This document shows, in pieces, positions 1,276 to 40,568 of a DNA stretch of 41,192 nucleotides (positions are counted from its first letter, which is position 1; each line of letters starts with the position of its first letter). The position numbers and the translations under genes were made by a program. Origin of the DNA: a virus. A model generated the notes under the pieces. It was given only the letters and a program-made list of their open reading frames with translations. It did no database searches and was not told the DNA's origin. The DNA lies in the IMG/VR virus record IMGVR_UViG_3300024323_000005, positions 1 through 41,192 of that record; one strand, given 5' to 3'.

Positions 1276-1692
1276 CTACCAGCCTGCCGGAATCCGAATC
1301 TGTGCCGAACAATTAGGGGCCACCAGAAGTTGGGGGTTTACAAAAGACTGCGCCTGATAATCGCCGAGGCCCCCGCCCGCCGTCGACTTCGACCACAGGT
1401 AATAAGCGCCGCCCGCGAGCGCCAATAGTCCGACAACGCCGATGCCGCCCACCGCGACTTTCTTCGACGCCCGCCGCTTGACCGCTTTCCCCACTCGCGC
1501 CGTGTCCTGAAACAAGGAAACCGCCAAATAAGAGCCGACGCCCGCAACGATGAACTCACCCGCGCCCCATGTGGTGGGATCCAACGAGTCAAAAAGACCC
1601 ATGCCGTGATCGTGCCCGCCGCAGGTTCCGCCGCAGTCGCAAGCACCGCCGCCGCATCCCAAGCCTTTCGAATTACCGCGTAAGTAGGGCAT
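1276..1692 (-). CDS. Membrane protein with Cys/Gly-rich start and GDYQAQS C-terminal motif
   Basis: 138 residues. Residues 10-30 are rich in Cys, Gly and His (CGGGACDCGGTCGGHDHG), possibly metal-binding. Two hydrophobic segments lie at about 45-62 and 80-100, with a basic cytoplasmic loop (KAVKRRASKK) between. The C-terminal motif LGDYQAQSFVNPQLL...IRIPAGW recurs in the larger basic membrane protein at 39702-40490, so the two share a terminal module. Start TAATG overlaps the upstream gene's... stop at 1692. Probable virion membrane protein; function unknown. Confidence 0.75.
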   Translation of the reverse strand: MPYLRGNSKGLGCGGGACDCGGTCGGHDHGMGLFDSLDPTTWGAGEFIVAGVGSYLAVSLFQDTARVGKAVKRRASKKVAVGGIGVVGLLALAGGAYYLWSKSTAGGGLGDYQAQSFVNPQLLVAPNCSAQIRIPAGW

Positions 1693-1985
1693 TATCGTCT
1701 CATCAAAAACATCACTGCCAGAATCCCCGCGCCAGCCAGTAGCAACGTACCTGAAAGGCTGGTCGCAACCGCATTTGAAACCGCGCCCGCCGTCGCATCG
1801 GCAATTCCACCGGCAACGGCCGCACCCGCCGATCCCACAACCCCGCCCATCTGACCGAGTGTGGACTCGGAGCCATATTTCGCCGCCGACTCCGTAGGCG
1901 TGTCGAGCCAGTACGGCAACCAGGACGGCCGGTTCGGATCGAAATATGAATCGTCGGGATATGCCCCAACGCCGCGCGTGTACAT
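1692..1985 (-). CDS. MYV-RGLG family small anchored protein (MYTRGVGAY)
   Basis: 97 residues beginning MYTRGVGAY, a variant of the N-terminal signature shared by six proteins of this element. The middle is Ala/Gly-rich (VGSAGAAVAGGIADATAGAVSNA), and the C-terminal 20 residues form a hydrophobic helix ending FLMRR. I choose the ATG at 1985 because it overlaps the upstream stop (TGATG) and gives the signature; an upstream in-frame ATG would only add translated repeat sequence. Likely a minor virion membrane protein. Confidence 0.75.
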   Translation of the reverse strand: MYTRGVGAYPDDSYFDPNRPSWLPYWLDTPTESAAKYGSESTLGQMGGVVGSAGAAVAGGIADATAGAVSNAVATSLSGTLLLAGAGILAVMFLMRR

Positions 1986-2227
1986 CAACGCCGCCCGCCT
2001 TTGAGGAGTATCAGCGCCAGAATCCCAACCGCCGCATAGCCGAACATTGGGGACATCGGGGCACACGCGAAGTTGGTCGAAGAATCGCCCGTAGTCCCGA
2101 CAAACGGAAACGAACTCGACATGCAAAACGATCCAGCGGTAAACGTCTCGTTCGATTCGCACACGCTGCTTGCCGGGTTGAATGTGTAGCCGGGATCGCA
2201 CGCTTGACCGAGCCCTTTAACGTACAT
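1985..2227 (-). CDS. MYV-RGLG family small anchored protein (MYVKGLGQ)
   Basis: 80 residues: MYVKGLGQ signature, a Cys/Ser-rich extracytoplasmic-looking middle (three Cys), then a hydrophobic helix and a basic end (LALILLKGGRR). The ATG is preceded by GAGGCCAAAACAA from the dispersed repeat at 2231-2281, which supplies the GAGG as a probable Shine-Dalgarno. Same architecture as 1692-1985 and 2388-2594. Confidence 0.75.
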   Translation of the reverse strand: MYVKGLGQACDPGYTFNPASSVCESNETFTAGSFCMSSSFPFVGTTGDSSTNFACAPMSPMFGYAAVGILALILLKGGRR

Positions 2228-2315
2228 TTGTTTTGGCCTCCATCGGCGTAGCGTGCGCCACACCTTGAATAGTCCCGACAGCCGAACTCTTGTTGGCGCG
2301 AAGGGCAAAAGCCAT
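2217..2315 (-). CDS. Vestigial 32-residue reading frame made mostly of repeat
   Basis: ATG at 2315 to TAA at 2217. The last residues (PMEAKTNVR) are the repeat-encoded tail form, and SSAVG resembles the tail start in gene 98-478. It lies between two facing repeat copies only 35 bp apart, so I read it as the remains of a cassette whose cargo was lost. It may not be translated. Confidence 0.3.
   Translation of the reverse strand: MAFALRANKSSAVGTIQGVAHATPMEAKTNVR
2231..2281 (-). repeat. Dispersed cassette-end repeat, copy 2
   Basis: Its GGCCAAAAC end touches the start of the gene 1985-2227. Forms a nearly empty inverted pair with the copy at 2317-2377. Confidence 0.85.
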
Positions 2316-2316
2316 T

Positions 2317-2377
2317 CCTGGTCGAACGAGATCCCGGAAGGGCGAAGCATTCAGGCCGCCTGAGGCTAAAGCAAAAA
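2317..2377 (+). repeat. Dispersed cassette-end repeat, copy 3 (diverged end)
   Basis: Reads CCTGGTCGAACGAG...GAGGCTAAAGCAAAAAC. The GGCC core has become GGCT, suggesting decay. No plus-strand gene follows. Confidence 0.7.
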
Positions 2378-2387
2378 CACCGAACAT

Positions 2388-2594
2388 TTAGGAATCACCC
2401 CCAAATGCGGAATAAAGTAGAATGCCACCGACGAGCAACCCCGCCCATGTTAAAGCCGACGAGCTACCCGAAGACGTTCCATCCGCGCTGATCATCGAGC
2501 CATCAGGAGCCGAGCACTTGGAGCCGACGTAGCCCCAGCTTGAAAAAGGAACCTTGACCACATCGCCCACGCCGCGTTTTCCGGGAACGTACAT
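2388..2594 (-). CDS. MYV-RGLG family small anchored protein (MYVPGKRGVGD)
   Basis: 68 residues: MYVPGKRGVGD start, a short polar segment with one Cys, a Ser-rich linker, and a C-terminal hydrophobic helix (TWAGLLVGGILLYSAFG). ATG at 2594 overlaps the upstream stop (TGATG). Longer upstream frames exist but would overlap most of the gene 2594-3127. Confidence 0.75.
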   Translation of the reverse strand: MYVPGKRGVGDVVKVPFSSWGYVGSKCSAPDGSMISADGTSSGSSSALTWAGLLVGGILLYSAFGGDS

Positions 2595-3127
2595 CAGTAC
2601 CGCCCTCCAGCTCGCCGGAAGTCCGCAAGCCCATAGCCGCCGAATCCGCGCCCGCCGCGAACGAACACCGGACGGGGTAAACCGCCCAAACCAGAAAGCC
2701 CCATGCCGCCCGCATCCGCCGCGACCACGAATTGAATCGGCGTGTACTTCGTATAGTTGGCGGTGTTCGCCGGCCGACCGTTCGGGAAGAAAGTCGCATC
2801 GAAGTTGTTGTTCGGCGTGAACCCCAACTGATTCCAATAATAGTTCCACTGATCCGCATTCAAAGGATTCGCCGAGCCCGCCGCGCCCGCCAATCGGAAC
2901 CCGGAAGCCGCCTGCGCCGCAGTTGCTTTGCTGGCATCGGGAGCCGGGGGAGTCGTGATCACCGGAGCGGATCCGCCACCGCTCGAACCGCCGCTGCCGC
3001 CGGATGTACCGCCGCCCGTGGTGGTGGGAGATGGAACCAGCGTCACAGGAGTTGTGAAGTACTTGTACGCCACATAAGCCGCGCCGCCCAGCAGTACGTA
3101 CGTCAACACGTTTGAGGAGCCCGCCAT
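2594..3127 (-). CDS. N-terminally anchored Gly-rich protein, probable virion protein
   Basis: 177 residues. A hydrophobic helix at about 6-20 (VLTYVLLGGAAYVAYKYF) is followed by a Gly/Ser-rich flexible linker, a polar domain with Asn/Tyr-rich segments (NYYWNQLGF, NNNFDATFF), and a C-terminal Gly/Arg-rich end that contains LSGLGGLPRPVFVRGG, reminiscent of the RGLG signature. ATG at 3127 lies one base after the upstream TAA. A longer start would lie inside the gene 3129-4130. Confidence 0.7.
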   Translation of the reverse strand: MAGSSNVLTYVLLGGAAYVAYKYFTTPVTLVPSPTTTGGGTSGGSGGSSGGGSAPVITTPPAPDASKATAAQAASGFRLAGAAGSANPLNADQWNYYWNQLGFTPNNNFDATFFPNGRPANTANYTKYTPIQFVVAADAGGMGLSGLGGLPRPVFVRGGRGFGGYGLADFRRAGGRY

Positions 3128-3128
3128 C

Positions 3129-4130
3129 TTAGTGCCGCCCTCCCAGAAAGAACACAGCGCCAACACCCGCCGCGATCAAAGCCCACGTTGGAAAGCTGGA
3201 GCCGCCCACGCTTACGGTGCTACTCAGGAATGAACCCCCGGAGCCAGAACCAGCACCGGCACCCGCGCCGCTGCCAGCTCCAGCACCCGCGGCTACCGAG
3301 AAAGAAAGAGAGCCCGCGGTTACGCCCCCCACTTTCCAGGATTCTGCCCACGTGCCCACCTGCCCCGCTCCGAATGTTCCGGTAAGCGTGAGTGAGCCGT
3401 TGGACCCTATCGTCCCCATCGGCGAGGTACCCAAGGAAGTGCCGTTTTGAGTTGCCGAGGCGGTTACCTGCGCATTGGGCGGACCCGTAACAACGATCTG
3501 CCATCCGTCACCTACGGCAAATGAGGAGTTGGACCCGCCCGAACTGTTGACCAGGCGAACCGTGGGAGTAACCGCCGATCCGCCGCCGCCCGTGTCGCGC
3601 ACGGCTGGAGTTGGACCCCAACCCGTAATCGGAGCATTGCCGGGGAGCTGGGGAGCCGCCGCGCCATATTTCGCGTAGAGCATCGCCGCCAACTGTTGCA
3701 CGGTGTAGTTGGACCAGTACGCGCCGCTCAAGTCCTGGTGACCGCCCGCAGGACATTGCATCGGTTGCCCGGAAATAGGATCGCTGTACACGCCGCCCGG
3801 ATGATTCGAGCAATACACCGCAGCATCGCCGATATTGATGGGGACTCCAGCGAGCGCCGCCGCCGCTGAGTTGGGACCGAGTACCGCGATGTCCTCCGCG
3901 ACTGCTGTATTTTGCGCCGCTATGAAGTCGGGGTTGTTCAGGATCGAGCATGGATCTGACGCCGGATCGGTGCCGATGGGAGCGCAGCAACGCGAGAGCC
4001 CGCCATTCCAATAATTGGGAGACGTGCAGGTATCGGCCGTCGAGCCCGTTGCACCGAAGCCGCGGCGACGACGAAAGACCGGCATCGGAAAAGGCACACG
4101 CCCAGGAGCCGCGCCGCGAGAGACGTACAT
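3129..4130 (-). CDS. MYV-RGLG family protein with Ig-like region and C-terminal anchor
   Basis: 333 residues. It starts MYVSRGAAPGRVPF and has a basic patch (FRRRRGFG) near 20. A Cys-containing domain spans about 30-130, and a Thr/Ser/Gly-rich beta-type region about 185-285 (AQVTASATQNGTSLG...) looks like an Ig-type fold. An Ala/Gly/Ser repeat linker follows, then a final membrane helix (FPTWALIAAGVGAVFFLGG). ATG overlaps the upstream stop (TGATG). A surface-exposed virion protein anchored at its C terminus is the simplest reading (inference). Confidence 0.7.
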   Translation of the reverse strand: MYVSRGAAPGRVPFPMPVFRRRRGFGATGSTADTCTSPNYWNGGLSRCCAPIGTDPASDPCSILNNPDFIAAQNTAVAEDIAVLGPNSAAAALAGVPINIGDAAVYCSNHPGGVYSDPISGQPMQCPAGGHQDLSGAYWSNYTVQQLAAMLYAKYGAAAPQLPGNAPITGWGPTPAVRDTGGGGSAVTPTVRLVNSSGGSNSSFAVGDGWQIVVTGPPNAQVTASATQNGTSLGTSPMGTIGSNGSLTLTGTFGAGQVGTWAESWKVGGVTAGSLSFSVAAGAGAGSGAGAGAGSGSGGSFLSSTVSVGGSSFPTWALIAAGVGAVFFLGGRH

Positions 4131-4837
4131 CAGTCGCCCCCCATCAGAACCGCCGCTGCGACCAGGCCGCCCGCTACAAGCAACGGCGTGGGGATTCCTG
4201 ATACCGCCGAAGTAAACGATTGGCTTGAGCTACCAGCGCTCGAGCCCGCATCAGTCGGGACTGGATCAGGTTGCACAAACGGATCGTTTGCGATGGGGTC
4301 GCGCATCCCGATAAACCAGTTCCAGCAATCCGTGCCCGAGCCCGCCGCGCCCCACTTCGTATACGTCCCATCTGCGTTCCATCCTCCGGGAGAAGCTTTC
4401 CACGTGCAGGCCCCGCGCTGCCGATCCGTGATGCAACGCTGACCGGCCGCCTGAAGTTGGGGATTACCGCACGCCTTTTGCAGAGCTGCCCACGTCGTAT
4501 CGAACGTGTTGAGCGCCGCCGCCTGCATCGACGCGTAGCGGATGGGCGACGAGGTATAGGCGTTGACGTTCTGGGAAAGCAGCGTGTCGCACTGATTGGC
4601 GATCTGCGTAGCCGCGATGCATGTCTGCCCGCATCCCTTAAATACGTTAGCAAGTGCAATGCCGATGCCGACCAATGCTGCGATTGCCGCACCGACGATA
4701 GGTACCGTTGCGCTGACCATGCCGAGTTGAAACAGAATTGATGCCGTAGTAGCAAAGCCCGCTGATGCAGTGCTCGCAATCGTTGAAACCGTCGGCGGAA
4801 CAACTTGCCCAAGGCCCCGTGAGGACACGTACATCAT
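4130..4837 (-). CDS. MYV-RGLG family protein with three hydrophobic regions and Cys-rich domain
   Basis: 235 residues. It starts MMYVSSRGLGQ, followed by a long hydrophobic stretch (about 15-68) that could form two helices. A domain with several cysteines follows (GCGQTCIAATQ, RCITDRQRGACTW, DCWNWFIGMRDP), and the protein ends in a C-terminal membrane helix (PLLVAGGLVAAAVLMGG). The Cys pairs suggest disulfides outside the cytoplasm. The start region reads ATGATG and overlaps the TGA of 4834-6006, so either Met could be used. I do not recognise a named family. Confidence 0.7.
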   Translation of the reverse strand: MMYVSSRGLGQVVPPTVSTIASTASAGFATTASILFQLGMVSATVPIVGAAIAALVGIGIALANVFKGCGQTCIAATQIANQCDTLLSQNVNAYTSSPIRYASMQAAALNTFDTTWAALQKACGNPQLQAAGQRCITDRQRGACTWKASPGGWNADGTYTKWGAAGSGTDCWNWFIGMRDPIANDPFVQPDPVPTDAGSSAGSSSQSFTSAVSGIPTPLLVAGGLVAAAVLMGGD

Positions 4838-6006
4838 TTCCGCCCCGTTAAAGAACGAAGAACCAGAATGAGAAGCAACGCGCCGCCGATCAAAGGCAGG
4901 TTGTTCATGATCGACGTGGTGAGCGCCGATGAATTGATCGGGTTGAGATTGCCCGCGCCGCTCAACAGGCCGGTTGCCGGGTTGTAAATCAAGTTCGTGC
5001 CTGCGACCTGGTACGGGCCGCCGCTTGCCGTGCGGATCAGGCTCACAGCCGCATTGCCACCTTGAGCGATGATGGCCGCGAGTTGCGCGGGGGTGAACTG
5101 AGCTTGATTCGGCGTGCCCGCGATCGGCGTTATCGTCGCCGGCAACGTGGGTATCAGATTCGGCTGAACTGGCAGGCCCGTTTCCGGGTCGATGATCTGC
5201 GTTGTGGTTGCTGGCGTGGAACTGAAGAGATTACCCAACGGCTGATCAATGTTCGTTTCAAACCAGGAGCCCGCCTCGTCGACAAACGTATCGCCGCTAT
5301 CTTGCCCCATCCCGCGCCGTCGACCGCGAGCAACCGCGCCCAGTCCGATGTACCCGTGCAGTCCTTGAAAGTTCGGAATCTTCACATCGGCCGGCCGGCC
5401 GTCGAGCGTCCACGTTTGGAAACGGTTAATACGATCGCGCGGAACCATCCAGCCAGGCGCTTTGCCGTGCGACGTGTCGAGCGGGATGATTCGCCCGTTC
5501 ACATTGGCGCACAAGAACACATGCGACCAGCGCCGGGGATCATCGAGATCCGTTGCGACCGTCGTAATATAGACCGGCACGCCGAGTATCGTGAGCATCG
5601 CCGCGCCCAGCATCGTGAACCCGTCGCAATCCTCAGACGGCTTATCCATTCTGACGAGGACTGCCGGCGCAATCAGAAGATCCTGCGAACCCGTTTCGCC
5701 CACCTGGAGCATCGTGCCTTCGTCGCTTCTGAACTTCACACAGTGCTTGATGTACCAGAACACGCCCCACAGAATTGCGGCCGGGTCCGAGCTGCCACGC
5801 GCGAAATGTTTCTTTGCGTAGGCCGCGCACGCTTGCACTACAGGATCTTTCACCGACTCCGCGATTAGATCGCACATCTTTCGTACGGTCTGCTGAGTTG
5901 CTCCGTCCGTGTCATCGGCCGCCCGCGTTCGATTCAGCGAGAGAGGCGGGAGCGATGGGCGGTAGGAGCGTGTGGCGGGCATCTGCAAGTGAGCCCTATT
6001 GTGCAA
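4834..6006 (-). CDS. Transglutaminase-like (papain-fold) protein with C-terminal membrane anchor
   Basis: 390 residues counted from a TTG at 6006; an ATG eight codons later (MPATRSYRP) is an equal candidate, and neither has a strong Shine-Dalgarno. Residues 75-185 carry the Cys-His-Asp arrangement of the transglutaminase-like superfamily: Cys127 in EDCDGF, His162 in WSHVFL and Asp177 in PLDTSHG. A basic segment with RGLG-like sequence (GLGAVARGRRRGMG) follows near 220, then a low-complexity linker and a final hydrophobic helix (NLPLIGGALLLILVL). Members of this superfamily cleave or cross-link proteins or peptidoglycan peptides. It is the first gene of the minus-strand arm. A virion-borne protease, cross-linker or wall-degrading entry enzyme are all possible. 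Confidence 0.75.
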   Translation of the reverse strand: MHNRAHLQMPATRSYRPSLPPLSLNRTRAADDTDGATQQTVRKMCDLIAESVKDPVVQACAAYAKKHFARGSSDPAAILWGVFWYIKHCVKFRSDEGTMLQVGETGSQDLLIAPAVLVRMDKPSEDCDGFTMLGAAMLTILGVPVYITTVATDLDDPRRWSHVFLCANVNGRIIPLDTSHGKAPGWMVPRDRINRFQTWTLDGRPADVKIPNFQGLHGYIGLGAVARGRRRGMGQDSGDTFVDEAGSWFETNIDQPLGNLFSSTPATTTQIIDPETGLPVQPNLIPTLPATITPIAGTPNQAQFTPAQLAAIIAQGGNAAVSLIRTASGGPYQVAGTNLIYNPATGLLSGAGNLNPINSSALTTSIMNNLPLIGGALLLILVLRSLTGRK

Positions 6007-6092: not shown

Positions 6093-7604
6093 ATGGCTGA
6101 AGTGACCGAAATGAGCAGTGTTTCTCCGACAATCCCGCCCGGAAACGGAACCGTGCCGCCCAAAAGACGCGTTGGACGGCCGCGGAAGGAAGAAAAGGCC
6201 GCCGAAGCCGACATCGAGCCGCCCGATGCGGAAATATCCGGGGATGAGGATTTCTGGCTGCAAATCTCAAACTACAGCCTTGACGAATGGAATCACCTAA
6301 CGGCCTATCTGTATCGAGTTGCCCCGCGCATCGACCGCAAATCAAACGGGAAGCCGATCAACCTCGGAGCGTATTCCATCCCGTTCACGCGCGAGGACAT
6401 CATGAAGGAACACGGATCAGGCGTGTACCGGATCGACCTGTGCGCCATGGAGCCAGCGGGCAGCAAGTCGCATCGGATCGCCCGAGAAGTGTTCACGATC
6501 ATCAATCCCAAGTTTCCGCCCGTTGTTCCCGTTGGTGACTGGGTAGACGACAGAATTAACGACATGTGGAAGTGGGGAATACCAGGAGCGCAGACACAAA
6601 TGAACGGCAACTATCCGCCCGGCTTCGACATGGACAAGATGTATAACAAGGCTTTCGAGTTCGCCGAGAAGCTCGCGCCGAAGCCGGCAGACAATACCGG
6701 CCAGAATGAACTCCTCATCAAATTGATCGACGTGGCCACTAAGCAGCCAACACCGCCGCCACCGCCCCCGCCACCGGACACATCAGGTATTGACCGGCTC
6801 TTGAATATGCTGCTTGAGGATCGCAAGGCCGACCGCGAGCGACTGGACCGAATGCAGGAACGCCTGAACGCGCCCGTTGCGCCTCAGAAGAGCATCATTG
6901 AGCAATTCATTGAGATCCGCCCGCAGATCAAAGAACTGGTGGATGCCTTTGCAACGAAGACCGGCAAGACGGACATTTGGGCGGAACTCGCCAAGGAGGG
7001 CATTGGACAAATTCCCGATCTGATCGAGTTGGGCCGCGACTTCGTAAAACGTGGCGACAAGCCCGCCGCACCAGGGTTTCAACCCCGGCCCCAGATTGCC
7101 GCGCCACCAACCGCCGCAACTCCGAACGCCGGCCAGGCCGCACCCGCCGACATGCCTATCAAGTCAGTCGACCAGATGACGGAAGAGGAGAAGCGGCAAT
7201 ACGTCGATCACCTGTGGAACAAGTACGGCCCTCACCTGCTGGGAATATCTTCGAAGCTGGTTGAAGAGTACAAGGTTCAGGACCAAGGATATTCGTTCCG
7301 CGATTGGTATTGCGAAATGTACGGAAAGCTGCGATGGGCCGACCTGAAACGCGATCTGCCGCCCGAGTTGATCACCAACATGTACCACGCGCACCCGCAG
7401 TTGCGAGAGGAACTCACGCCGCCCGCCCGCCTGACGTTGTTCCTCGTTCAATTCTTCACGCCATTCGGAGAGGAAGGCGATGATCTGCCGCCCGCTGCCG
7501 ATCTATCCGAAGACGCCCCGCCACATGTCGAGCACACCAACGGAGTGAGCGCCGTATTGCAGCCCGAGGCCAAAACAAAAGCCACACCCAAGGGAGCCCA
7601 CTAA
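6093..7604 (+). CDS. Large conserved-type hypothetical with AT-hook-like start, first gene of plus arm
   Basis: 503 residues. An AT-hook-like KRRVGRPRKEE lies near 25-36. A folded domain (about 52-190) contains FWLQISNYSLDEWNHLTAYLYR and IMKEHGSGVYRIDL, a domain type I have a sense of from other unassigned bacterial and viral proteins but cannot name. A Pro-rich run near 219-228, a helical segment, a second Pro/Ala linker and an acidic helical C-terminal domain follow. The tail HVEHTNG...LQPEAKTK is encoded by a dispersed repeat. GKT occurs at FATKTGKTD but lacks the upstream Gly of a Walker A loop. Start: GGGGG nine bases upstream. A DNA-binding or structural role is only suggested by the AT-hook. 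Confidence 0.75.
   Translation: MAEVTEMSSVSPTIPPGNGTVPPKRRVGRPRKEEKAAEADIEPPDAEISGDEDFWLQISNYSLDEWNHLTAYLYRVAPRIDRKSNGKPINLGAYSIPFTREDIMKEHGSGVYRIDLCAMEPAGSKSHRIAREVFTIINPKFPPVVPVGDWVDDRINDMWKWGIPGAQTQMNGNYPPGFDMDKMYNKAFEFAEKLAPKPADNTGQNELLIKLIDVATKQPTPPPPPPPPDTSGIDRLLNMLLEDRKADRERLDRMQERLNAPVAPQKSIIEQFIEIRPQIKELVDAFATKTGKTDIWAELAKEGIGQIPDLIELGRDFVKRGDKPAAPGFQPRPQIAAPPTAATPNAGQAAPADMPIKSVDQMTEEEKRQYVDHLWNKYGPHLLGISSKLVEEYKVQDQGYSFRDWYCEMYGKLRWADLKRDLPPELITNMYHAHPQLREELTPPARLTLFLVQFFTPFGEEGDDLPPAADLSEDAPPHVEHTNGVSAVLQPEAKTKATPKGAH
7526..7576 (+). repeat. Dispersed cassette-end repeat, copy in 3' end of 6093-7604
   Basis: TGTCGAGCAC...GAGGCCAAAAC, translated as VEHTNG...LQPEAK in the same frame as other tails. 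The next start codon is 32 bases further on. Confidence 0.85.
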
Positions 7605-11267: not shown

Positions 11268-11354
11268 GGGGTGCGTGAAATTATTTTCCGGGTGCCGGAA
11301 ATTGGTAGATGGAGGACTTTTGGGGGATTGTTTTGGGGTGTGAGGGTGATAATA

Positions 11355-11405
11355 TTTTGGCCTCGGGCGGTGTTGCGGTGCTGACTGACATCATGCGCTC
11401 GACAG
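11355..11405 (-). repeat. Dispersed cassette-end repeat, left end of cassette 11355-11712
   Basis: TTTTGGCCTCGGGCGG...GCTCGACAG, immediately followed by GGAGG and nine bases later the ATG at 11421, so its TCGACAG end abuts the ribosome binding site. Confidence 0.9.
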
Positions 11406-18555: not shown

Positions 18556-20109
18556 CTACTTGGGAATGGACTGCTTGAGCTGCGCAAGTTTCTGCGCAAC
18601 CGGGTGATTGGCTTCACTCTGCGATGCCGGCAGAGCGTTCCAGATTGCCTCAAGGGTTTCGATGAGCGTTACGTACCAGGGTTGTTGCTGCCCCGCCGCA
18701 ACCGGAGCCGGGGTAGTTCCCGCTTTCCGTTGCTGTTGTTTCTGCCAGTTGGTCTTAGGCATTAGAGGTACCTCGCCCGTAATCATATCAGCCTTGGACC
18801 GCGTTCTGAACTCGCGCGGATAAGGAACTTCAGGCGGATGGACGCCGAGAAAGCCGCACAGCTCCGACCAGCCGGCCGACTCCATATCCATCACAAGCAG
18901 ATCCCCCGGCCGATCCCGGAAGTATTCGAGCACTTCGGCGTTGTGTCGGCGAAACCGCGCCAGGAACAACTCACGGTCAAACCCCTTCTGCCCATAGAGC
19001 AGCTTATGCGCTTTGTGAGTGAAGGCGTCATCATTCCAGGTGTGCCGGTACGGGTTGTATTCGTGGCTCCAGTGCCGCCGCACGCTTTCAATCCACTTCG
19101 ATTCATCCCGCGTTGTCAGAATGAATTTCGAGCCGGGATACGCGCGATCGAGTTCCCGATAGAGCAGCGGAAACGGCAGATCGCTCATGGTGTAGTGTTT
19201 TTCGAGTGTGACCGAGCGCCCCACCGTCGTCATCTCGCGCCACACCGCCTTTGCCCACCGCGCGGTTTTCCAGTGCGCCCCGTCGAAGCCGAGCAGCTCT
19301 AGGGCAGTGTGCAACGAAGTCGTAGCCGTCTTGTGCATTCCAATCCCGAACACGCGGGTAGGAAGCGGGTTCAGCTCGATCGGTTGGGTGAAATCGAAGT
19401 TGCGGTAAACCGTGCCGCATCCGAAGTTGCCGCCGTTGACGATGGTCGACGTGTCGCAGTCCAAGACTTCTTCAACGTCGTAACAGCCGGCCGACGTCCA
19501 GACGTGCTTGTATTCCCGAAAGCGCATTTTATCGGTGTGCATGATGGCGTTCAGGAACCGGGGTTCAATCTCCCGAGCCTCATAACCCAGCCGGCGCAAC
19601 CGCGCCGCAAAATCTTTATCGTCGGGACTCCAGGTGTCGAAGCGTTCATCGTAGCCGCCCGCGTTCAGGAATGCCGTGGTGGAAACGGCGATGCGCCCGG
19701 AAATTCCCTTGGGTAACCGGCCCTCACCATCTTTAATCATCCGCGCCCACATGAACGAGCCGGGGAACTGGCTGAACTGGGTTTCAAGATACGCCGCGAA
19801 TCCCGGCCCCGTGAAGTTGTCCGCGTCGACATTGACGAGGACGGATCCGCCCTCGAGCATTCCGCAGCGGTGCGCCATGTTTTTCGCGTGCGCCATGCGG
19901 AACGGGTGATCCCCACGGTAAGAGTAAACCACTAGGCGGCCGGCGCGGAAATCCTCAGTGTGGTGGGTGAGAAGATATTCGGCCAGGTGATCCTGCGAAT
20001 TGTAATCGATCACAACGAACGTCGCATCCGGGTTGTCGAGCAGATTCGCCGGAAGCGTTCTTTCTAGGTGCTGCGTTCGCCCTTTACACGTGGTGCAAAA
20101 GACAATCAT
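18556..20109 (-). CDS. Glycosyltransferase-sulfotransferase fusion
   Basis: 517 residues in two enzymes. Residues 1-240 are a GT-A type glycosyltransferase: strand start MIVFCTTCKGR, metal-binding DAD at 95-97 (VNVDADNF), and GGYDERFDTWSPDDKDFAARL near 151-171, the galactosyltransferase C-terminal acid motif. Residues 250-450 are a sulfotransferase: RVFGIGMHKTATTSL (5'-phosphosulfate loop) at 252-266 and FILTTRDESKWIESVRRHW (3'-phosphate region). A Gln/Ala-rich linker and a helical end follow. Predicted action is to add a sugar and then sulfate from PAPS to a glycan or protein in the cytoplasm. It has its own promoter region at 20110-20254, an opposite strand to its neighbours, and looks like an acquired gene. 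Confidence 0.85.
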   Translation of the reverse strand: MIVFCTTCKGRTQHLERTLPANLLDNPDATFVVIDYNSQDHLAEYLLTHHTEDFRAGRLVVYSYRGDHPFRMAHAKNMAHRCGMLEGGSVLVNVDADNFTGPGFAAYLETQFSQFPGSFMWARMIKDGEGRLPKGISGRIAVSTTAFLNAGGYDERFDTWSPDDKDFAARLRRLGYEAREIEPRFLNAIMHTDKMRFREYKHVWTSAGCYDVEEVLDCDTSTIVNGGNFGCGTVYRNFDFTQPIELNPLPTRVFGIGMHKTATTSLHTALELLGFDGAHWKTARWAKAVWREMTTVGRSVTLEKHYTMSDLPFPLLYRELDRAYPGSKFILTTRDESKWIESVRRHWSHEYNPYRHTWNDDAFTHKAHKLLYGQKGFDRELFLARFRRHNAEVLEYFRDRPGDLLVMDMESAGWSELCGFLGVHPPEVPYPREFRTRSKADMITGEVPLMPKTNWQKQQQRKAGTTPAPVAAGQQQPWYVTLIETLEAIWNALPASQSEANHPVAQKLAQLKQSIPK

Positions 20110-23594: not shown

Positions 23595-23992
23595 GCCGCG
23601 TTGTCAAAGCGCTGACCCGTTCCTATCGCGGTGTCGATTCCTCGATATCCGCCCCGGAGTGGGAACAAGACCGGCATTCGGAGCCGCAATCCGTGAATGT
23701 CGTACGCTCAGAAGCCGACGCAAAGCGCGAGACGATAGAAGGCCAAAACAAAATGAACACCCCGAACACACCGCAACCCCGCATATTAGGAGAAGGCCGC
23801 ATCACATTCGAAGCCTACGTAAAACAGCACTTCCCGCAAGAAGTAGGCAGAACAGGCTGGGAGTGGAACAGCTTGCCCGCGAGCACCGTAAAACGATGGG
23901 CAGCAATCGAGCAAGCCGTGATCGACGCCTACCAGGGTGAACCCTCAAGAACCGCCGTGTTGCCCGTTCAAGAGCCTCACAAAGCCGAATAA
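23591..23992 (+). CDS. Two short segments fused through a translated repeat
   Basis: 133 residues. Residues 1-30 form a small basic N-terminal part, 31-53 (EPQSVNVVRSEADAKRETIEGQN) are translated repeat, and 54-133 (MNTPNTPQPRILGEG...GWEWNSLPASTVKRWAAIEQAVIDAY) are a second domain. The ATG at 23752, three bases after GGCCAAAAC, fits the usual repeat-start arrangement and may be the real start of that domain. Last gene of the plus arm; overlaps the convergent M23 gene by 16 bp. Confidence 0.6.
   Translation: MSRVVKALTRSYRGVDSSISAPEWEQDRHSEPQSVNVVRSEADAKRETIEGQNKMNTPNTPQPRILGEGRITFEAYVKQHFPQEVGRTGWEWNSLPASTVKRWAAIEQAVIDAYQGEPSRTAVLPVQEPHKAE
23683..23749 (+). repeat. Dispersed cassette-end repeat in the middle of 23591-23992
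   Basis: GCCGCAATCCGTGAATGTCGTACGCTCAG...AAGGCCAAAAC followed by AAAATG. Open in the VNVVRSE frame, so it links the two parts. Confidence 0.9.
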
Positions 23993-24519
23993 GCGAGCAA
24001 CCCCAAAGCCAACGCTGCCGCCCCCAGCATCACAGGATCAGCAGTAGCGGAGGGATCGCCAAAGACCGTCGAAAGGTCCAAGCTGGCATCCGTCGAGTCG
24101 ATGAGATCAGGCGCGAGCTGCATTTCAGGATCGACCGCGGAACCGTTCTCATAAACCCCGAAGTGCAGGTTAGGCCCCGACACCGTGCCCGTGGCGCCGC
24201 TTAGCGCGATCTGCTGACCGTCCCCGACGCTTTGCCCCACCGATACCCCGATTTGAGAGAGATGCCCGTAGAGCGTCGTTACGCCGCCGCCATGGTCGAT
24301 CACAACCGTGTTGCCGAATCCCGATTGGACACCCGCGAAGATAACCGTTCCATCGCCAGCCGCTTCAACTGGAGTTCCCACAGGTACCGCGTAGTCGATG
24401 CCCTGGTGATTCCTGGAGGCCCCGGCAACGGGTTGAGTACGGGGGCCGAACAAGGAAGAAATAATGGGCGTGCCTGAGATCGGTGGGGTGAGTGCTCCGA
24501 GGCCGCGCCGCACGTACAT
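23977..24519 (-). CDS. M23 (LytM-type) endopeptidase, anchored, MYV-RGLG family start
   Basis: 180 residues. It begins MYVRRGLGAL, the signature of the anchored proteins at the other end of this arm. The peptidase domain has His38 and Asp42 (NHQGID), His86 (LYGHLS) and His119 (NLHFGV). The HxH motif reads N-L-H, so the usual first His is Asn and activity may be altered. It ends in a C-terminal helix (VMLGAAALALGLLAYSAL). M23 enzymes cut peptidoglycan cross-bridges. A virion-borne wall-opening enzyme for entry fits the shared signature and anchor better than a soluble endolysin. Confidence 0.85.
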   Translation of the reverse strand: MYVRRGLGALTPPISGTPIISSLFGPRTQPVAGASRNHQGIDYAVPVGTPVEAAGDGTVIFAGVQSGFGNTVVIDHGGGVTTLYGHLSQIGVSVGQSVGDGQQIALSGATGTVSGPNLHFGVYENGSAVDPEMQLAPDLIDSTDASLDLSTVFGDPSATADPVMLGAAALALGLLAYSAL

Positions 24520-25091: not shown

Positions 25092-26576
25092 CTACTGAAT
25101 AATCGGAAAGCCCACCGCTGCCCCACCTGAAGCAGCCGCTAAAGCGCCAATCGTTGCAAACCCGGTTCCGCCCACCAGAAGCGATCCCGGAAACCCTAAA
25201 GCCCTCAGGAGAGCCCCACCGCCCGCCGTGTTGTTTGGCGCGAAGTTGTTGCCGGCCGAATTAACGAAGGGATTCGCTGTCAAGATTTGATCGTTTGCCC
25301 CTGCCGTGATCAGATTGAGGTTGGCCGTCACGTTAGCCCCATAGGCGTTGTAGTTCATGAAAGCGCCGATCTGCGCATTGGTGCAGCCGGAACAACCCAT
25401 CCCATACCGGCCGTTTCCATAAAACACACTGTTTAGGACGATGACCGATTGCGCCCCGATCTGAGTTTTTAGGCCATCCTCCCCATTGTTCACAGCAACC
25501 GAATTGAGGATGATCGCGGTGCCCTGCGCAGATCCGATGTTGAAGCCATCGACGGTACTACTGCCCGTGTTGTTTGCAGCAATGCAGACATTGCAGGTGC
25601 CCCGAGGGTTACCTAGGTTAAAGATTCCCGACGCGGTAGTCGTCGTGTTGCTGTACGCCGCACAGACGATGCAGCTCGACTGCGCGTTATTATTCCAAAA
25701 GAAAGCGTTTCCCGCACCTGACTGAGTTGTCACCGAACAGTTGAAACAAAAGTTATCGATGTCGAAAAAGCCGATGCCGTAGGTGCCCGAGCAGCCCTTG
25801 ACCGAGATGTTAGCCGCAGAATTGCCGGGACCGTCGATTGCGAGACCTATGGAACTCGATTGACCATTACAGTCGATAATCACGTTTCGGAGCTGTGCTC
25901 CTCGATTCGCGCCGCCGCCGATATCCAAGAAGATGCTGCCCGCCGTTTCCTGGAAAGTGACTTGCAGATTGTCCCCGCGCGTCGATCCATACCCGCTGAT
26001 CACCGGCAGCAGGTTCGTGGACCCCGCCGAGGGCGTAAAGGAAAACGTGCTCGAGAACGTAATCGTCGCGGTGGCTTTGATCCATGCTTGATTTCCTGCC
26101 ACCAGTTGCATATTGGTGTTCAGTTGCGTGGGAGTGAGCAGCGCCCCGCCTATGTTCATCGTCATTCCAGTGCTGGCTGCGATGCTCGCGTCGATGGTCA
26201 TGCTGGTAGCACTGACGAACGTCGCCCGCCGCCACTGCGCCGTGATCGACCCCGTGCCCCCGGAGAAGAAAACGATGTTGCCGGTGATCGCCGCAGAAAA
26301 GTTACCCGTGGCACTAGTTACAGTCGTCGTGCCGTTGGCCACCGCATCCGTTGTCGAAATGTTGACCGTCGCGCTTTGGCAAGAGGAACAGGCCGCCGCG
26401 TTCTTATTGTTGAACTGACTCAGGTCAGTCCCGGAGCCGGTGGAGTCGAAGCCGCCGCCGTTGGTGTCCGAGCCTACGCTGGGGCGCATTTCCCAGACGG
26501 TGGTTGCTGGGATGGTTCCGAATGCGGGGAGAAGAAGGAAAAGGATCAGAAGAGTGGTCAGGAATCGGGTTTTCAT
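25092..26576 (-). CDS. Secreted right-handed beta-helix protein (pectin-lyase-like fold), fibre candidate
   Basis: 494 residues from ATG at 26576, directly behind GGCCAAAACAAA. MKTRFLTTLLILFLLLPAFGTIPA is a Sec signal peptide. The mature part has repeated turns of about 20-25 residues rich in Asn, Gly, Ser and Cys (NVIIDCNGQSS, NISVKGCSGTYG, NSVAVNNGEDGL, NSVFYGNGRYG), typical of parallel beta-helices used by polysaccharide-binding or cutting spikes. A signal peptide on such a protein is unusual for a tailed-phage spike. Host surface binding is likely; enzymatic activity cannot be read. Confidence 0.7.
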   Translation of the reverse strand: MKTRFLTTLLILFLLLPAFGTIPATTVWEMRPSVGSDTNGGGFDSTGSGTDLSQFNNKNAAACSSCQSATVNISTTDAVANGTTTVTSATGNFSAAITGNIVFFSGGTGSITAQWRRATFVSATSMTIDASIAASTGMTMNIGGALLTPTQLNTNMQLVAGNQAWIKATATITFSSTFSFTPSAGSTNLLPVISGYGSTRGDNLQVTFQETAGSIFLDIGGGANRGAQLRNVIIDCNGQSSSIGLAIDGPGNSAANISVKGCSGTYGIGFFDIDNFCFNCSVTTQSGAGNAFFWNNNAQSSCIVCAAYSNTTTTASGIFNLGNPRGTCNVCIAANNTGSSTVDGFNIGSAQGTAIILNSVAVNNGEDGLKTQIGAQSVIVLNSVFYGNGRYGMGCSGCTNAQIGAFMNYNAYGANVTANLNLITAGANDQILTANPFVNSAGNNFAPNNTAGGGALLRALGFPGSLLVGGTGFATIGALAAASGGAAVGFPIIQ

Positions 26577-26579
26577 TTT

Positions 26580-26644
26580 GTTTTGGCCTTGCCAGAGTTT
26601 CGGGCTTGGAAGGGAACTGAACGGGCGACACTCACGGATTGCGG
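26580..26644 (-). repeat. Dispersed cassette-end repeat, long form
   Basis: TTTTGGCCTTGCCAGAG...GGCGACACTCACGGATTGCGGC fills the gap between the fibre gene and its upstream neighbour and ends one base before the latter's stop. Confidence 0.85.
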
Positions 26645-29815: not shown

Positions 29816-30127
29816 TTACGGTTCCGTCCTTTTGCGTGAGCCGCTGGGTTCGTCGTCGTGGGCTTTGTGGTCCTGCCCGTCGGCGTTTTCTTCTTTCAAC
29901 TCCGCGCGTCCCTCCACGTTGCCTTGTGCCCGGGAAGCGCTTGCGGTTGCCTGAGTCAGCTTTTCAACCAGGCCGTTGGTGTTGTGCTCCGTCCGTGTCG
30001 CAACTTCGAGAGTCTTTTTAGAATGACCCGAAGACTTATAGGAGAACCACGCCGCCGCCACTGCTCCGAAGGCAGCGGCGATGCCTGGAATGGTGTGGAT
30101 CAATTCGATCTGAACGGCGTCGGTCAT
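29816..30127 (-). CDS. Single-pass membrane protein with coiled tail, lysis-linked
   Basis: 103 residues: hydrophobic segment at 12-28 (TIPGIAAAFGAVAAAWFSY), then a charged helical tail (TLEVATRTEHNTNGLVEKLTQATASASRAQG). Small proteins of this type lie beside holins in many phages and may be inner-membrane spanins or holin regulators. ATG overlaps the upstream stop (ATGA) and follows GGCCAAAACAAA. Confidence 0.65.
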   Translation of the reverse strand: MTDAVQIELIHTIPGIAAAFGAVAAAWFSYKSSGHSKKTLEVATRTEHNTNGLVEKLTQATASASRAQGNVEGRAELKEENADGQDHKAHDDEPSGSRKRTEP

Positions 30128-30360
30128 TTTGTTTTGGCCTCGGGCGGTGCTGTGGCTTCGTCGGGGTTTGCACGCTCGACATCCGACAATTCTTCGCTTA
30201 CGACCGGCGTTCGCCTATCTTCATGAACAACACGGGCGAAGATTTTAAACCGCCTAGCTCCGTAATGGCGTCCGAAGAAAACACCGTCTTCGTTTTCAAT
30301 AAAGCGTAGTTGGCCACTGCTATCGCCGATAAGGGATGCCCGCGCATTGCTGAGTGTCAT
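30124..30360 (-). CDS. Small basic protein with repeat-encoded tail
   Basis: 78 residues from ATG at 30360. A beta-type start (LIGDSSGQLRFIENEDGVFFGRHYGARRFKIFARVV) is followed by a tail from DVERANPDEATAPPEAKTK, which is the repeat at 30132-30181. A longer frame upstream would run through another repeat and is unlikely. Cargo of an inverted pair. Confidence 0.6.
   Translation of the reverse strand: MTLSNARASLIGDSSGQLRFIENEDGVFFGRHYGARRFKIFARVVHEDRRTPVVSEELSDVERANPDEATAPPEAKTK
30132..30181 (-). repeat. Dispersed cassette-end repeat, left end of cassette 30132-30444
   Basis: Almost identical to the copy at 35615-35665, differing at only a few bases over 50, which points to recent duplication. 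Confidence 0.9.
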
Positions 30361-34800: not shown

Positions 34801-35610
34801 TTACGTCCAGAGGTACTTGAAATCGAAGAGCAACAACTGGCTTGCCGGAACGTAAATCTCGGGGTACACGAAACCCGGCAAGGCCGCGTTCATGAACGGA
34901 AACAATAGCGCGATCGGCACGTAGTCGTTTGAGTAGCCCTTGCCGAACGCATCCCGCATTCTGAAGCCCAGATCGGCGAGCGACATGGGGAGCCCGCCCG
35001 TGGTCGAGTCGGAATCGGCATACGCGCCCATTTGAAAAACGAAATCCGCGTCTTTTTCAACAATGAACGGTTGGTTGAGAATCGGCCCGCTGGTAATCGT
35101 CACGTTGGGGACGATCAGGCTATTGGTGTAGGGTCGCGCGGTCCATTTCTCGGGATAAGTGGGTTGCCAGATGTCGCCCGGTTTGTAAATCTTCGTGCCG
35201 ACGAACACGATAACCGCACTGGGGGTTTTGGTCGCCGGGTTCAGCGTTTGCAAGTCGACCGTTATAACCGATTGTGGCGGGAAAATGATGTTGGGCGTGA
35301 TCGGCGAAATCAGAGCTTGATTGGGATTCGCGCCCGTGGGCGTCGGGGTTCCTGCGTAGGAGTTACCGGGCGCAAGCGAGTTCGCCGGGGTGAAGATTCT
35401 TTGGATGAGTCGCCCATCGGGGCGCATGAAGCGCAAGGACATTTGACCATCGAAAGCCCCGCCCGCTACGTTGTTCGTCCAGACTGCGATGCCGTACAGC
35501 CTGAAGGGCGCGTCGTCGTCGGTTTGGAGGTTGAGCCCTTCCTGGATCGAGCCGGCCGGGTTTACTGTGGTTACCGGGAATACGTAGTGCTGCATGCGCT
35601 CGATGATCAT
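34801..35610 (-). CDS. Two-module beta-sandwich protein, capsid candidate
   Basis: 269 residues from ATG at 35610 (after GGCCAAAACAAA). Two similar halves: a first with NLQTDDDAPFRLYGIAVW...IIFPPQSVITVDLQTLNPAT...SAVIVFVGTKIY, a second with IVEKDADFVFQMGAYA...GFVYPEIYVPASQLLLFDFKYLW. The duplicated 'D-x-DA-x-F ... P-x-x-I-x-x-P ... G-x-K-x-Y' order is also in 35962-36960. A tandem beta-sandwich would suit a double-jelly-roll type capsid protein, but this is a hypothesis from pattern alone. Confidence 0.5.
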   Translation of the reverse strand: MIIERMQHYVFPVTTVNPAGSIQEGLNLQTDDDAPFRLYGIAVWTNNVAGGAFDGQMSLRFMRPDGRLIQRIFTPANSLAPGNSYAGTPTPTGANPNQALISPITPNIIFPPQSVITVDLQTLNPATKTPSAVIVFVGTKIYKPGDIWQPTYPEKWTARPYTNSLIVPNVTITSGPILNQPFIVEKDADFVFQMGAYADSDSTTGGLPMSLADLGFRMRDAFGKGYSNDYVPIALLFPFMNAALPGFVYPEIYVPASQLLLFDFKYLWT

Positions 35611-35882
35611 TTTGTTTTGGCCTCGGGCGGTGCTGTGGCTTCGTCGGGGTTTGTGCGCTCGACAGTTGGCATTTCTACATCCACACCAAATAAAACCTTG
35701 GCTCTCCCCTTCTCCATTTCGCTCAGCGCCTCTTCGGAAGCCCCGATCGAACGCAAATGACGTATCCACCAGCCCCAACAGCGCTCAGACTTAACCGCTA
35801 TCTTGGCTAGCGGCCGCACAAAGAACCAGATTGCTCCAAATATCAATCGAAACAACAATGCGATGGGATTTGGAATGGTCAC
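35607..35882 (-). CDS. Small membrane-associated protein with repeat-encoded tail
   Basis: 91 residues from GTG at 35882 with GGAGG seven bases upstream. A hydrophobic start (IALLFRLIFGAIWFFV) is followed by a basic helical middle and the tail TVERTNPDEATAPPEAKTK, nearly identical to that of 30124-30360. Cargo of an inverted repeat pair. Confidence 0.65.
   Translation of the reverse strand: MTIPNPIALLFRLIFGAIWFFVRPLAKIAVKSERCWGWWIRHLRSIGASEEALSEMEKGRAKVLFGVDVEMPTVERTNPDEATAPPEAKTK
35615..35665 (-). repeat. Dispersed cassette-end repeat, left end of cassette 35615-35948
   Basis: TTTTGGCCTCGGGCGG...GCGCTCGACAG; near-twin of 30132-30181. Confidence 0.9.
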
Positions 35883-35961: not shown

Positions 35962-36960
35962 TCACGTGCAAAACTCCTCACCATAGACCTTCACCCCGCG
36001 CAAGGAAAACTGAACGCTCACAGTTGCGGGAGTCAGCAAAGCGTTATCGACCGACACCACCGCGCCCCGTGGAATGTAAATCTCAGGCCAGTGGGGAGCC
36101 ATCCGGCCGCCGCCGTTTGATAACACCATCTCCGCACCCGGCCCCGCGATGTTCGGCATGAGCCCAACGCGCGGAATCTGTCTTGCCAGCGGAACAATCG
36201 CGTTGTCGTAGAACGTCAAGAACCATTCTCCCGGAATGGGGGCGGGGCCACCTTTGCTCATGATCATTCCCGAAGTGCCGCGCCACAGGAAAGAAGCATC
36301 GTCATCGGTGCGCAGGGCGAACTGTTGAAACACATTGTTGGGCGTCTGGGGTTGCAGATTCACCGCCCACGGGGGAGCCGTTGCGAGCGTGCCGTTGACG
36401 AACTCGAAAAAGTATTCGTACTCTTCAAACCAGATCGCCGGATGCCATGGCTTGCAGAATCGCCGCGACTGGGGGCGGAACTCCGGGATATCACCTTGCT
36501 TCGTGTCGCATTTGACGCGCTTCCAGCCTTTGAACCCGACGATAACAACGGCGGTTTCGGTTGCGCTTTGGTTCCAAATGTCAACGTAGGGTTGAGAGCC
36601 TTTGCGGAACGGGAGAACGGCGGGGCCTACCGGCCCGTTGATATCGTTCAGCGTTACCCAGTCCGACGTAATAAATTGCCCGTCGCCGTCGACCAGGCGG
36701 AACTTCAAATCTTGCGGGTTGAGCGTGCCCGTGGTGCCTACGATTGGTTGCGCGAAGATTTCACGCGCCAGATAATCCGCGTCATTGTCGACTTGCAATT
36801 GATTTTTGAGCGACTGGATTCCCGGAGCGATGGTTACCGTGATGGGGTCAAAGTCGAACTCGACATCACACCAGCCGGGGAGCTGGGGGGTGAAGCCTGC
36901 CCACTTGGGGGCGTACATGTTTCCTGACCAGGGGTTGACGGAAAAGCCGTTGGGGGTCAT
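35962..36960 (-). CDS. Two-module beta-sandwich protein, capsid candidate
   Basis: 332 residues with two alike halves. First: LQVDNDADYLAREIFAQPI...DLKFRLVDGDGQFITSDWV...YVDIWNQSATETAVVIVGFKGWKRV. Second: FALRTDDDASFLWRGTSGM...WFLTFYDN...HWPEIYIPRGAVVSVDNALLTPATVSVQFSLRGVKVYG. Both start with a D-x-DA-x-[YF]-L strand and finish with V-x-[VL]-x-[GR]-x-K. Same design as 34801-35610. The best large capsid-type candidate together with 38989-39669. ATGA overlap with the repeat-tailed lipoprotein-like gene. Confidence 0.5.
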   Translation of the reverse strand: MTPNGFSVNPWSGNMYAPKWAGFTPQLPGWCDVEFDFDPITVTIAPGIQSLKNQLQVDNDADYLAREIFAQPIVGTTGTLNPQDLKFRLVDGDGQFITSDWVTLNDINGPVGPAVLPFRKGSQPYVDIWNQSATETAVVIVGFKGWKRVKCDTKQGDIPEFRPQSRRFCKPWHPAIWFEEYEYFFEFVNGTLATAPPWAVNLQPQTPNNVFQQFALRTDDDASFLWRGTSGMIMSKGGPAPIPGEWFLTFYDNAIVPLARQIPRVGLMPNIAGPGAEMVLSNGGGRMAPHWPEIYIPRGAVVSVDNALLTPATVSVQFSLRGVKVYGEEFCT

Positions 36961-37121
36961 TTGTTTTTGGCCTCGGTCAGTATCCCGGCTTGGATCGCCT
37001 TTGAACGCTCGACAGCCGCCTTCACTTCTTCGAACACAGAACGCTTTGAACCGTCATGGGCGCAGCAGCCGAGGCCGAGCACCAGAGCGAAGAACAACCA
37101 CGTTGGAGAAAGGCGCGTCAT
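36957..37121 (-). CDS. Small lipoprotein-like protein with repeat-encoded tail
   Basis: 54 residues from ATG at 37121 (ATGA overlap with 37118-37576). MTRLSPTWLFFALVLGLGCC ends in a possible but weak lipobox (LGLG-C). The rest is AAVERSKAIQAGILTEAKNK, the repeat at 36965-37015. Might be an outer-membrane spanin-type lipoprotein; too short to judge. Confidence 0.55.
   Translation of the reverse strand: MTRLSPTWLFFALVLGLGCCAHDGSKRSVFEEVKAAVERSKAIQAGILTEAKNK
36965..37015 (-). repeat. Dispersed cassette-end repeat, copy before 35962-36960
   Basis: TTTTGGCCTCGGTCAG...GAACGCTCGACAG, translated on the minus strand as VERSKAIQAGILTEAK, one of the cleanest tails. Confidence 0.9.
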
Positions 37122-37878: not shown

Positions 37879-38045
37879 ACAGACCCTCCCGCCGAGATCA
37901 GCCGCTTTTCACATTCCCAGTCTTCGATGCCGAGAGTGACGAGAAAGGCCGGTTTGTCGGTCTGACCGGACATTTCGCAAATCTCGCGGTCGCACCGCTC
38001 TAAAGCGCTTGCGCAGTGTGTTGCGCGACTGGTTTTATCGTTCAT
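37875..38045 (-). CDS. Small Cys-containing protein between two ATGA overlaps
   Basis: 56 residues (MNDKTSRATHCASALERCDREICEM...DWECEKRLISAGGSV). Its ATG overlaps the TGA of 38042-38728, and its TGA overlaps the ATG of 37573-37878, so it is fitted exactly into the operon. Four Cys may bind metal. Its coding DNA includes an iteron-like site. Confidence 0.65.
   Translation of the reverse strand: MNDKTSRATHCASALERCDREICEMSGQTDKPAFLVTLGIEDWECEKRLISAGGSV
38009..38026. repeat. Distant iteron-like site
   Basis: TTGCGCAGTGTGTTGCGC matches the initiator-gene palindrome in its left half and most of its right half, about 27 kb away. Possibly chance. Confidence 0.3.
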
Positions 38046-38728
38046 TTTCGATTAGCCCAGACGAGTATACCAGCCGCCGCGACAACCGCAAGCAGGCCCC
38101 CAACTCCCGACAACGGGTTGGAATCCTGCCCCAGTCCCGAAAGGCCCGCACGCCACGCCGCGAGCCGCGCCCGTTCAGAGGCTACCGTTTCATGTGGCGC
38201 GGGAGTATTCATCACGACCGGAGCCGCCAGCGGAATCGGAGCCGGGGCGTTACACGGGCAGGGAGGAACCAGACCGCGAACTTCAACACCCGCCTCTGTG
38301 TAATTCGGGTATGCGGCAACCAGCGCTTTCCAGTTGCGCCGTGGAAGCCGGGGACGTGGCCATGGCCGGCCGTCCCGTCGGATCGGGAAACCATAAGACC
38401 CCGTGAGAATGTCGACCGGGGTTAAAGCGTAGGGCACTCCCGGAGTCGGAAGTACGGAGAGCGGATCGTATCCCGCAGGAACCGGGAATCCGTAAGCGCC
38501 AGCGGGGATAGTGCCGGGGCTACCGTCGCCGTTCGGATCATAGAAGCCTTGACCCGCAAAAGCCGGATCGGAGCAACAATCCGCAACCAGGCCGCCCATT
38601 ACCCGATTTCCCCCGACGACAATATCGTTGACTCGCGACTGTTCGGCCGTACGCCGCGCCAGCTCGTTCGCCACGTATGCCGGGGTACGCAAGCCTGAGT
38701 AATCGTTTGTGAATGGCGTGTAGCCCAT
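38042..38728 (-). CDS. Pro-rich protein with C-terminal membrane anchor
   Basis: 228 residues. A Pro/Gly/Tyr-rich middle (GAYGFPVPAGYDPLSVLPTPG) has a Cys pair (PPCPCN) and the end LSGLGQDSNPLSGVGGLLAVVAAAGILVWANRK has a LSGLGQ element like the RGLGQ signature plus a membrane helix. Probably a virion membrane protein. ATG lies behind GGCCAAAATAAAAACC of the repeat. Confidence 0.65.
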   Translation of the reverse strand: MGYTPFTNDYSGLRTPAYVANELARRTAEQSRVNDIVVGGNRVMGGLVADCCSDPAFAGQGFYDPNGDGSPGTIPAGAYGFPVPAGYDPLSVLPTPGVPYALTPVDILTGSYGFPIRRDGRPWPRPRLPRRNWKALVAAYPNYTEAGVEVRGLVPPCPCNAPAPIPLAAPVVMNTPAPHETVASERARLAAWRAGLSGLGQDSNPLSGVGGLLAVVAAAGILVWANRK

Positions 38729-40490: not shown

Positions 40491-40518
40491 TTTCGTTTCA
40501 AACCCTCCTTCTTTTGTC

Positions 40519-40568
40519 TTTGGCCTCGGTCAGCATTTCTGCTTCGGAGGCCACTGAAGGCTCGACAG
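40519..40568 (-). repeat. Dispersed cassette-end repeat, copy before 39702-40490
   Basis: TTTGGCCTCGGTCAGC...GAAGGCTCGACAG, 28 bases upstream of the ATG at 40490, with a separate AAGGAGGG in between. Confidence 0.85.

Follow-up and report, generated by a model that had tools for sequence, protein, structure and literature searches.

A Gly-hydrophobic-Gly motif recurring on membrane-anchored proteins of a circular viral genome, and a candidate transglutaminase-fold maturation protease encoded beside it

The IMG/VR virus record IMGVR_UViG_3300024323_000005, analysed here over its full length of 41,192 nucleotides (the window), begins and ends with the same bases, positions 1-127 being identical to 41066-41192. 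This exact direct terminal repeat of 127 bases shows the record to be complete, a closed circle of about 41065 bases. The two arms of minus-strand structural genes, one running from 6006 down to 98 and the other, across the join, from 41172 down to 23977, therefore form a single block. In this block lie proteins that carry a short tag with the common core G-h-G (h being L, M, V, F or I; GhG below), often in the form [RK]G[LMV]G with Q, D or A as the next residue, together with an enzyme predicted to have a transglutaminase-type fold, and the relation between tag and enzyme is the subject of this study. Genes were called by a simple custom script, and some start codons may be wrong; the tagged genes, the enzyme and the capsid candidate discussed below all lie on the minus strand.

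The original prediction, made without database searches, named six proteins with similar beginnings and a closing hydrophobic helix, and all six heads and helices are present. They are MYT-RGVG-A on a protein of 97 residues (1692-1985), MYV-KGLG-Q on one of 80 residues with a GGRR end (1985-2227), MYVPGK-RGVG-D on one of 68 residues (2388-2594), MYVSS-RGLG-Q on one of 234 residues (4130-4834, GhG at 4808-4816), MYVR-RGLG-A on an M23 peptidase (23977-24519; Peptidase_M23 PF01551, E 9.2e-34), and MYVSRGAAPGRVPFPMPVFRRR-RGFG-A on a protein of 333 residues (3129-4130, GhG at 4053-4061) that ends in FPTW, the helix and GGRH. The last does start with MYVSRGAAPG as described, but its GhG comes later, in FRRRRGFGA at residue 24. 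The genes at 4130, 3129, 2388 and 1692 start as ...TG|ATGTAC..., overlapping the upstream stop by 1 nucleotide. Related pieces noticed inside other proteins are also there: YIGLGA (residue 213) and RRRGMGQ (residue 224) in 4834-5982, and GLSGLGQ (residue 198) in 38042-38728, where it stands directly ahead of the C-terminal helix. The bodies behind the heads, which had been called unrelated, mostly are so, but not wholly, since BLAST of body against body gave weak matches (best E 0.006 and 0.012), all of them involving the low-complexity 3129-4130 protein.

Three further window proteins carry the motif in other arrangements. The N-anchored protein at 2594-3127, with its helix at the start, has three GhG near its C terminus (residues 141, 146 and 161). 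The protein at 1276-1692 has KGLG and then a Cys/Gly-rich stretch ending in HGMG, with a C-terminal GLGDYQAQ peptide, and a basic protein with helices at 39702-40490 has LGMG-DYQAQ near its C terminus; these last two are paralogues with a conserved C-terminal peptide in common that starts G[LM]GDYQAQS.

Scanning with the enzyme encoded in 4834-6006 gave 19 viral contigs, and another 2 from metagenome-assembled genomes, as relatives of the window, and a scan with the capsid candidate gave 2 more (L026 and L028; L-numbers denote related contigs or loci compared with the window). In L028 the enzyme gene is divided over the record ends. The family of the 4130-4834 protein is found in 19 contigs and that of the 3129-4130 protein in 10, the window included in each. 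One check proposed with the original prediction was whether the motif persists in homologues, and in related contigs it is kept.

The motif is more frequent in the block than composition would give. In composition-keeping local shuffles over 13 loci, GhG outside the helix occurred in 72/94 C-terminal-helix proteins of the block against 30.4 expected, and genes outside the block showed no excess (25/198 against about 32 expected). By position, leaving out proteins with the string DCD (mostly the enzyme), block proteins ending in a membrane helix carry GhG in 78/136 cases within residues 1-40, in 24/122 within residues 41-80, in 7/86 within residues 81-120 and in 0/66 within residues 121-160, so that the proposed enrichment towards N termini is borne out; soluble proteins outside the block have it within residues 1-40 in 6/259 cases. 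With the same exclusion, [RK]GhG is present in 37/136 of the block proteins against 1/259 of the soluble genes outside. N-anchored proteins show GhG within their last 40 residues in 7/26 cases against 0/20 outside the block. C-anchored proteins have 109 unique sites, in which R precedes the motif in 38%, h is L in 46%, M in 23% and V in 16%, and the residue that follows is Q in 27%, D in 18% and A in 14%. The MY start is a separate and weaker trend (29/419 block genes against 5/334 others). A possible second sorting signal at the membrane helix, [ILVFM]P(x)W, was set aside as too weak, with 24/97 headed against 7/57 head-less C-helix proteins.

Within orthologue families the motif stands ahead of the body at a shifting distance from the start. 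For 138 pairs of orthologues less than 75% identical, the median difference in head length is 10 residues and 9/138 have heads of equal length; such variable length fits a disposable leader. The idea of a shared signal on different bodies that is tied to assembly is supported, but to call the signal an N-terminal head would be inaccurate, since it lies at varying distances from the start codon, inside fusion proteins and, in some N-anchored proteins, near the C terminus.

Two unrelated cell-wall enzymes carry both the tag and an end helix, the M23 peptidase in the window and an SLT transglycosylase (PF01464) in L026 and L028 (E 4e-22 and 5e-23), where the heads are MYRRTLRRRGLGA and MYWRTVRRGLGA. 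A family from 10 contigs combines a membrane helix with several G-h-G or related steps, most clearly in L008, L009 and L012, where units such as DFVGAQFAVPENPIM-RGMG recur every 22-24 residues; these tandem units of 20-24 residues, closed by GMG or GVG, stand ahead of one anchor and are followed in the same three contigs by a Cys/Gly-rich stretch again ending in GMG. The window protein at 1276-1692 also has a Cys/Gly-rich stretch, between GLG and GMG. A DnaJ-domain protein also lies within the structural block of L008 (15668-16069; PF00226, E 4e-14), and DnaJ-like proteins form a family in 6 contigs.

The gene at 4834-5982 (open reading frame 4834-6006) encodes the enzyme, whose transglutaminase-like cysteine-protease domain, delimited by alignment, structure model and structure matches, covers residues ~20-205 (5368-5925). 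In an alignment of 22 members the invariant positions are at D118, C119, H154 and D169-x-S-H-G, and C119 (5626-5628), H154 (5521-5523) and D169 (5476-5478), invariant in 22/22, form a Cys-His-Asp triad assigned by order and fold rather than by residue superposition. Relatives' enzymes are 27-53% identical to that of the window. The predicted local distance difference test score (pLDDT) of the model exceeds 90 over most of the domain, residues ~20-205 being the confident ones, and falls below 50 over residues 209-262, which are modelled as disordered and contain RRRGMGQ. Transglutaminase-type fold matches (Foldseek, VIA) have Z from 14.4 to 9.8 over 139-169 residues, led by two putative cysteine proteases, 3kd4 with Z 14.4 (Foldseek E 2e-5) and 3isr with Z 11.3 (E 3.7e-5); LapG, a protease proven to be site-specific, matches with Z 10.3, and FXIII, TG2/TG3 and PeiW/PeiP are also among the matches. 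By its modelled fold the enzyme belongs to the transglutaminase-like superfamily. Pfam Transglut_core matches weakly, in 3/11 members with a best E of 0.03, and searches of Pfam, PHROGs and PDB sequences gave no family beyond it; among the five Pfam families listed for the 11 members at E up to 5 there was neither the LapG family nor an adenain-family match. The L008-L012 enzymes have RG[MVL]G immediately ahead of the active-site Cys, a string that other members do not keep and that was not built on.

Nine of the aligned enzymes continue into a fused cargo that has an end helix of its own; in the window this cargo occupies 4837-5304. The junction at 5305-5346, disordered in the model, holds two GhG sites between enzyme and cargo, GLG at 5338-5346 and RRR-GMG-Q at 5305-5313; such a pair is found in the window, L002 and L003, and would excise a linker. 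GhG stands at the junction in 8/9 fused forms (the window, L002, L003, L004, L005, L007, L013 and L014). In distant relatives the cargo is a separate gene, lying just downstream of the enzyme in L008-L012 and L015, with one gene between in L009. The second Gly of the motif is in register in 8/8 aligned cargo sequences, although the sequence upstream differs and in the fused forms has been exchanged for the 200-residue enzyme, and staying in register with an enzyme of that length in front is what would be required of a cleavage junction. In L017, L018, L020 and L021 the next C-helix gene carries G-h-G, which in L016, as called, it does not; L019 and L022 have no clear cargo counterpart. The enzyme is present in 14/14 related records, 12 of which had been found through it and the other two (L026 and L028) only through the capsid candidate.

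Sorting, cleavage and docking had all been offered as roles for the shared head, and cleavage now has the most support, since every record tested has a gene for a transglutaminase-fold cysteine-protease candidate beside the tag. We propose that the tag is probably the cleavage site of this co-encoded enzyme, acting as a protease that matures virion membrane proteins; the motif, its distribution, the modelled fold and the triad of the enzyme, its co-occurrence with the motif and the fused and split forms are observed, and the enzyme's proteolytic activity, the position and timing of the cut and a location in the virion are what we infer. Under this proposal membrane-anchored virion proteins would be made with a short disposable head bordering [RK]-G-[LMV]-G, or, in N-anchored proteins, with a short disposable tail instead, and the Cys-His-Asp protease would be attached to the membrane through a helix of its own or through the fused cargo. 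The cut would most likely come between the second Gly and the residue that follows it (G|Q, G|D or G|A), during or after assembly. It would free the enzyme from its cargo, shorten the anchored proteins at the end away from the membrane, among them the M23 or SLT cell-wall enzyme that may be used at entry or exit, and divide the tandem-repeat protein into several short peptides. In L017 and L018 several heads have changed to [RHN]-L-G-[AS], as expected if a diverged protease had altered its preference. Our reading is that one viral cysteine protease acts on many substrates.

Several observations weigh against this proposal. Forty-five C-helix genes lack any called GhG; in 7/45 of them the in-frame sequence immediately ahead of the start as called contains a GhG, and chance probably accounts for some of these. 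The junction of L006 is without GhG. Identity just upstream of the site (0.14) is close to that just downstream (0.17), which marks no clear disposable side, and some C-terminal tails past the motif in N-anchored proteins are conserved, which would suit a functional peptide equally well. The transglutaminase fold is also that of cross-linking, deamidation, PNGase and endoisopeptidase enzymes, and the L017 enzyme, a distant member, weakly matches a pseudomurein-binding protein of Methanobacterium virus Drs3.

The main rival, which we consider unlikely, is that the membrane-distal GhG end stays uncut and docks to a common partner, for example the capsid shell, tethering the membrane proteins to it. 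The position of the tag opposite the anchor in both topologies agrees with docking, as do the conserved tails, and the repeats could give multivalent binding; but the motif between enzyme and cargo and the invariant protease candidate next door would be left unexplained, and so small and degenerate a motif is ill suited to binding. Considerably less probable is a true transglutaminase that would join the Gln after GhG to lysines of neighbouring proteins and so staple the particle. FXIII and TG2/TG3 among the fold matches speak for it, as does Q being the commonest next residue, but about a quarter of sites have Gln there and 73% do not, which makes cross-linking the less likely. Hardly better placed, and if anything slightly worse, is the view that the enzyme is a virion enzyme directed at the cell wall or host and unrelated to the motif, which would then serve membrane insertion or another sorting step. 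The Drs3 match and PeiW/PeiP point that way, but M23 or SLT already provides a cell-wall enzyme, and the enzyme and its motif-bearing cargo are fused or near neighbours in the loci compared for this arrangement. That the heads are left over from recent duplication, Gly-rich sequence and start-codon overlaps, as the MY starts in tightly packed genes with 1-nucleotide overlaps and the 30.4 matches expected from high Gly content might suggest, is largely refuted by the 72/94 observed, the mostly unrelated bodies and the persistence of the tag across contigs whose enzymes have diverged so far.

The proposed maturation by a protease can be set beside known systems. The protease of adenoviruses is of a fold family that differs from the transglutaminase type. 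In adenovirus the protease cuts at (M/I/L)XGX-G or (M/I/L)XGG-X in several minor capsid and core proteins (PMC3386624), so that the likeness is of one viral cysteine protease acting at a Gly-based site on several proteins, the site in the window being similar in kind to (M/I/L)XGX-G, the cutting here predicted and the virion location inferred. Unlike it, the window site is looser and lies on membrane-anchored proteins, and the fold matches the transglutaminase type. LapG cuts the large protein LapA before A109, at small residues close to its N-terminal end (PMC3032545). LapG (BTLCP) and the window enzyme are alike in fold (Z 10.3), in the Cys-His-Asp triad, in small residues at the cut and in a cut near the N terminus (both here predicted); they differ in that LapG is periplasmic and acts on an adhesin under LapD control, while the window enzyme is viral and membrane-linked, has its tag on many proteins and shows no Pfam match to the LapG family. 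The PRD1 and Bam35-Toil groups have a lytic transglycosylase (PMC5894146), and many small membrane proteins with a lytic enzyme in the structural block are a likeness to PRD1-type tectiviruses, from which the window differs in having no Walker A string in its called proteins. By term count, "protease" and "transglutaminase" are absent from PMC5894146, and "protease" and "proteolytic" from the review PMC6356626.

We suggest, more tentatively and with some doubt, that the window represents undescribed circular double-stranded DNA viruses of prokaryotes, probably tailless and membrane-containing, in which a transglutaminase-fold protease matures the whole membrane-anchored virion set and a tandem-peptide precursor at a portable G-h-G site, a counterpart of adenovirus or poxvirus maturation with a different protease fold. 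If so, a protease dedicated to maturation, with its site present on many proteins, would operate in probably membrane-containing prokaryotic viruses, the short tag would tell the proteins of the particle from the rest in a group whose proteins are almost all without known relatives, and a simple enzyme-substrate test would be at hand. A tailless, membrane-containing virus is our guess from the number of membrane proteins. A PHROGs scan of 10 window proteins returned no terminase, portal or capsid protein and a single weak tape-measure match (E 0.007, for 4130-4837), and with the search for a Walker A string it revealed no recognised hallmark gene in this virus of about 41 kilobases. A HerA-like ATPase in one larger relative (L035, 16070-17611) may serve in packaging, and no ATPase of its kind was seen in the window. 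Word searches of open-licence PMC papers found no description of the lineage, an absence that counts for little; the enzyme was unmatched in annotated phage and plasmid collections alike, as were the capsid candidate and the 4130-4834 protein in the annotated phage collections.

The candidate major capsid protein (38989-39669), which has no GhG, is proposed from its conservation and its place in the block. It is present in 14/14 records, 7 of which (L009, L011, L013, L014, L016, L017 and L018) neither fed its search model nor were found through it. Set against the jelly roll expected of the major capsid protein in double or single jelly-roll membrane viruses, its structure model is beta-rich and of low confidence (mean pLDDT 58.9), with no structural match at E 0.001 or better and SPV1 entry 6oj0 at probability 0.63 only. 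Searches of Pfam, PHROGs and PDB sequences gave it no family, six PDB matches at E 0.15 to CoA-transferases or hydrolases being taken as chance. A scan with the single sequence found nothing, whereas the scan with its alignment did find relatives.

Elsewhere in the window, interspersed repeats of about 60-90 bases lie at gene junctions in both orientations and in several families (TTTTGGCCTC ... GCTCGACA and complement), for example at 104-162, 11347-11405, 26573-26631, 30124-30182, 35607-35665, 36957-37015 and 40510-40568, and possibly represent a repeated promoter or recombination element. The divergent neighbour of the enzyme (6093-7604) encodes a 503-residue protein of no known family whose own family is found in 20/22 contigs compared, the window included. 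A small multi-helix protein with a weak YhhN match lies at 98-478, with a similar protein in L008 (17487-17852). At 18556-20109, on the minus strand amid plus-strand genes, a glycosyltransferase-like N-terminal part is fused to a sulfotransferase (Sulfotransfer_4, E 1e-33).

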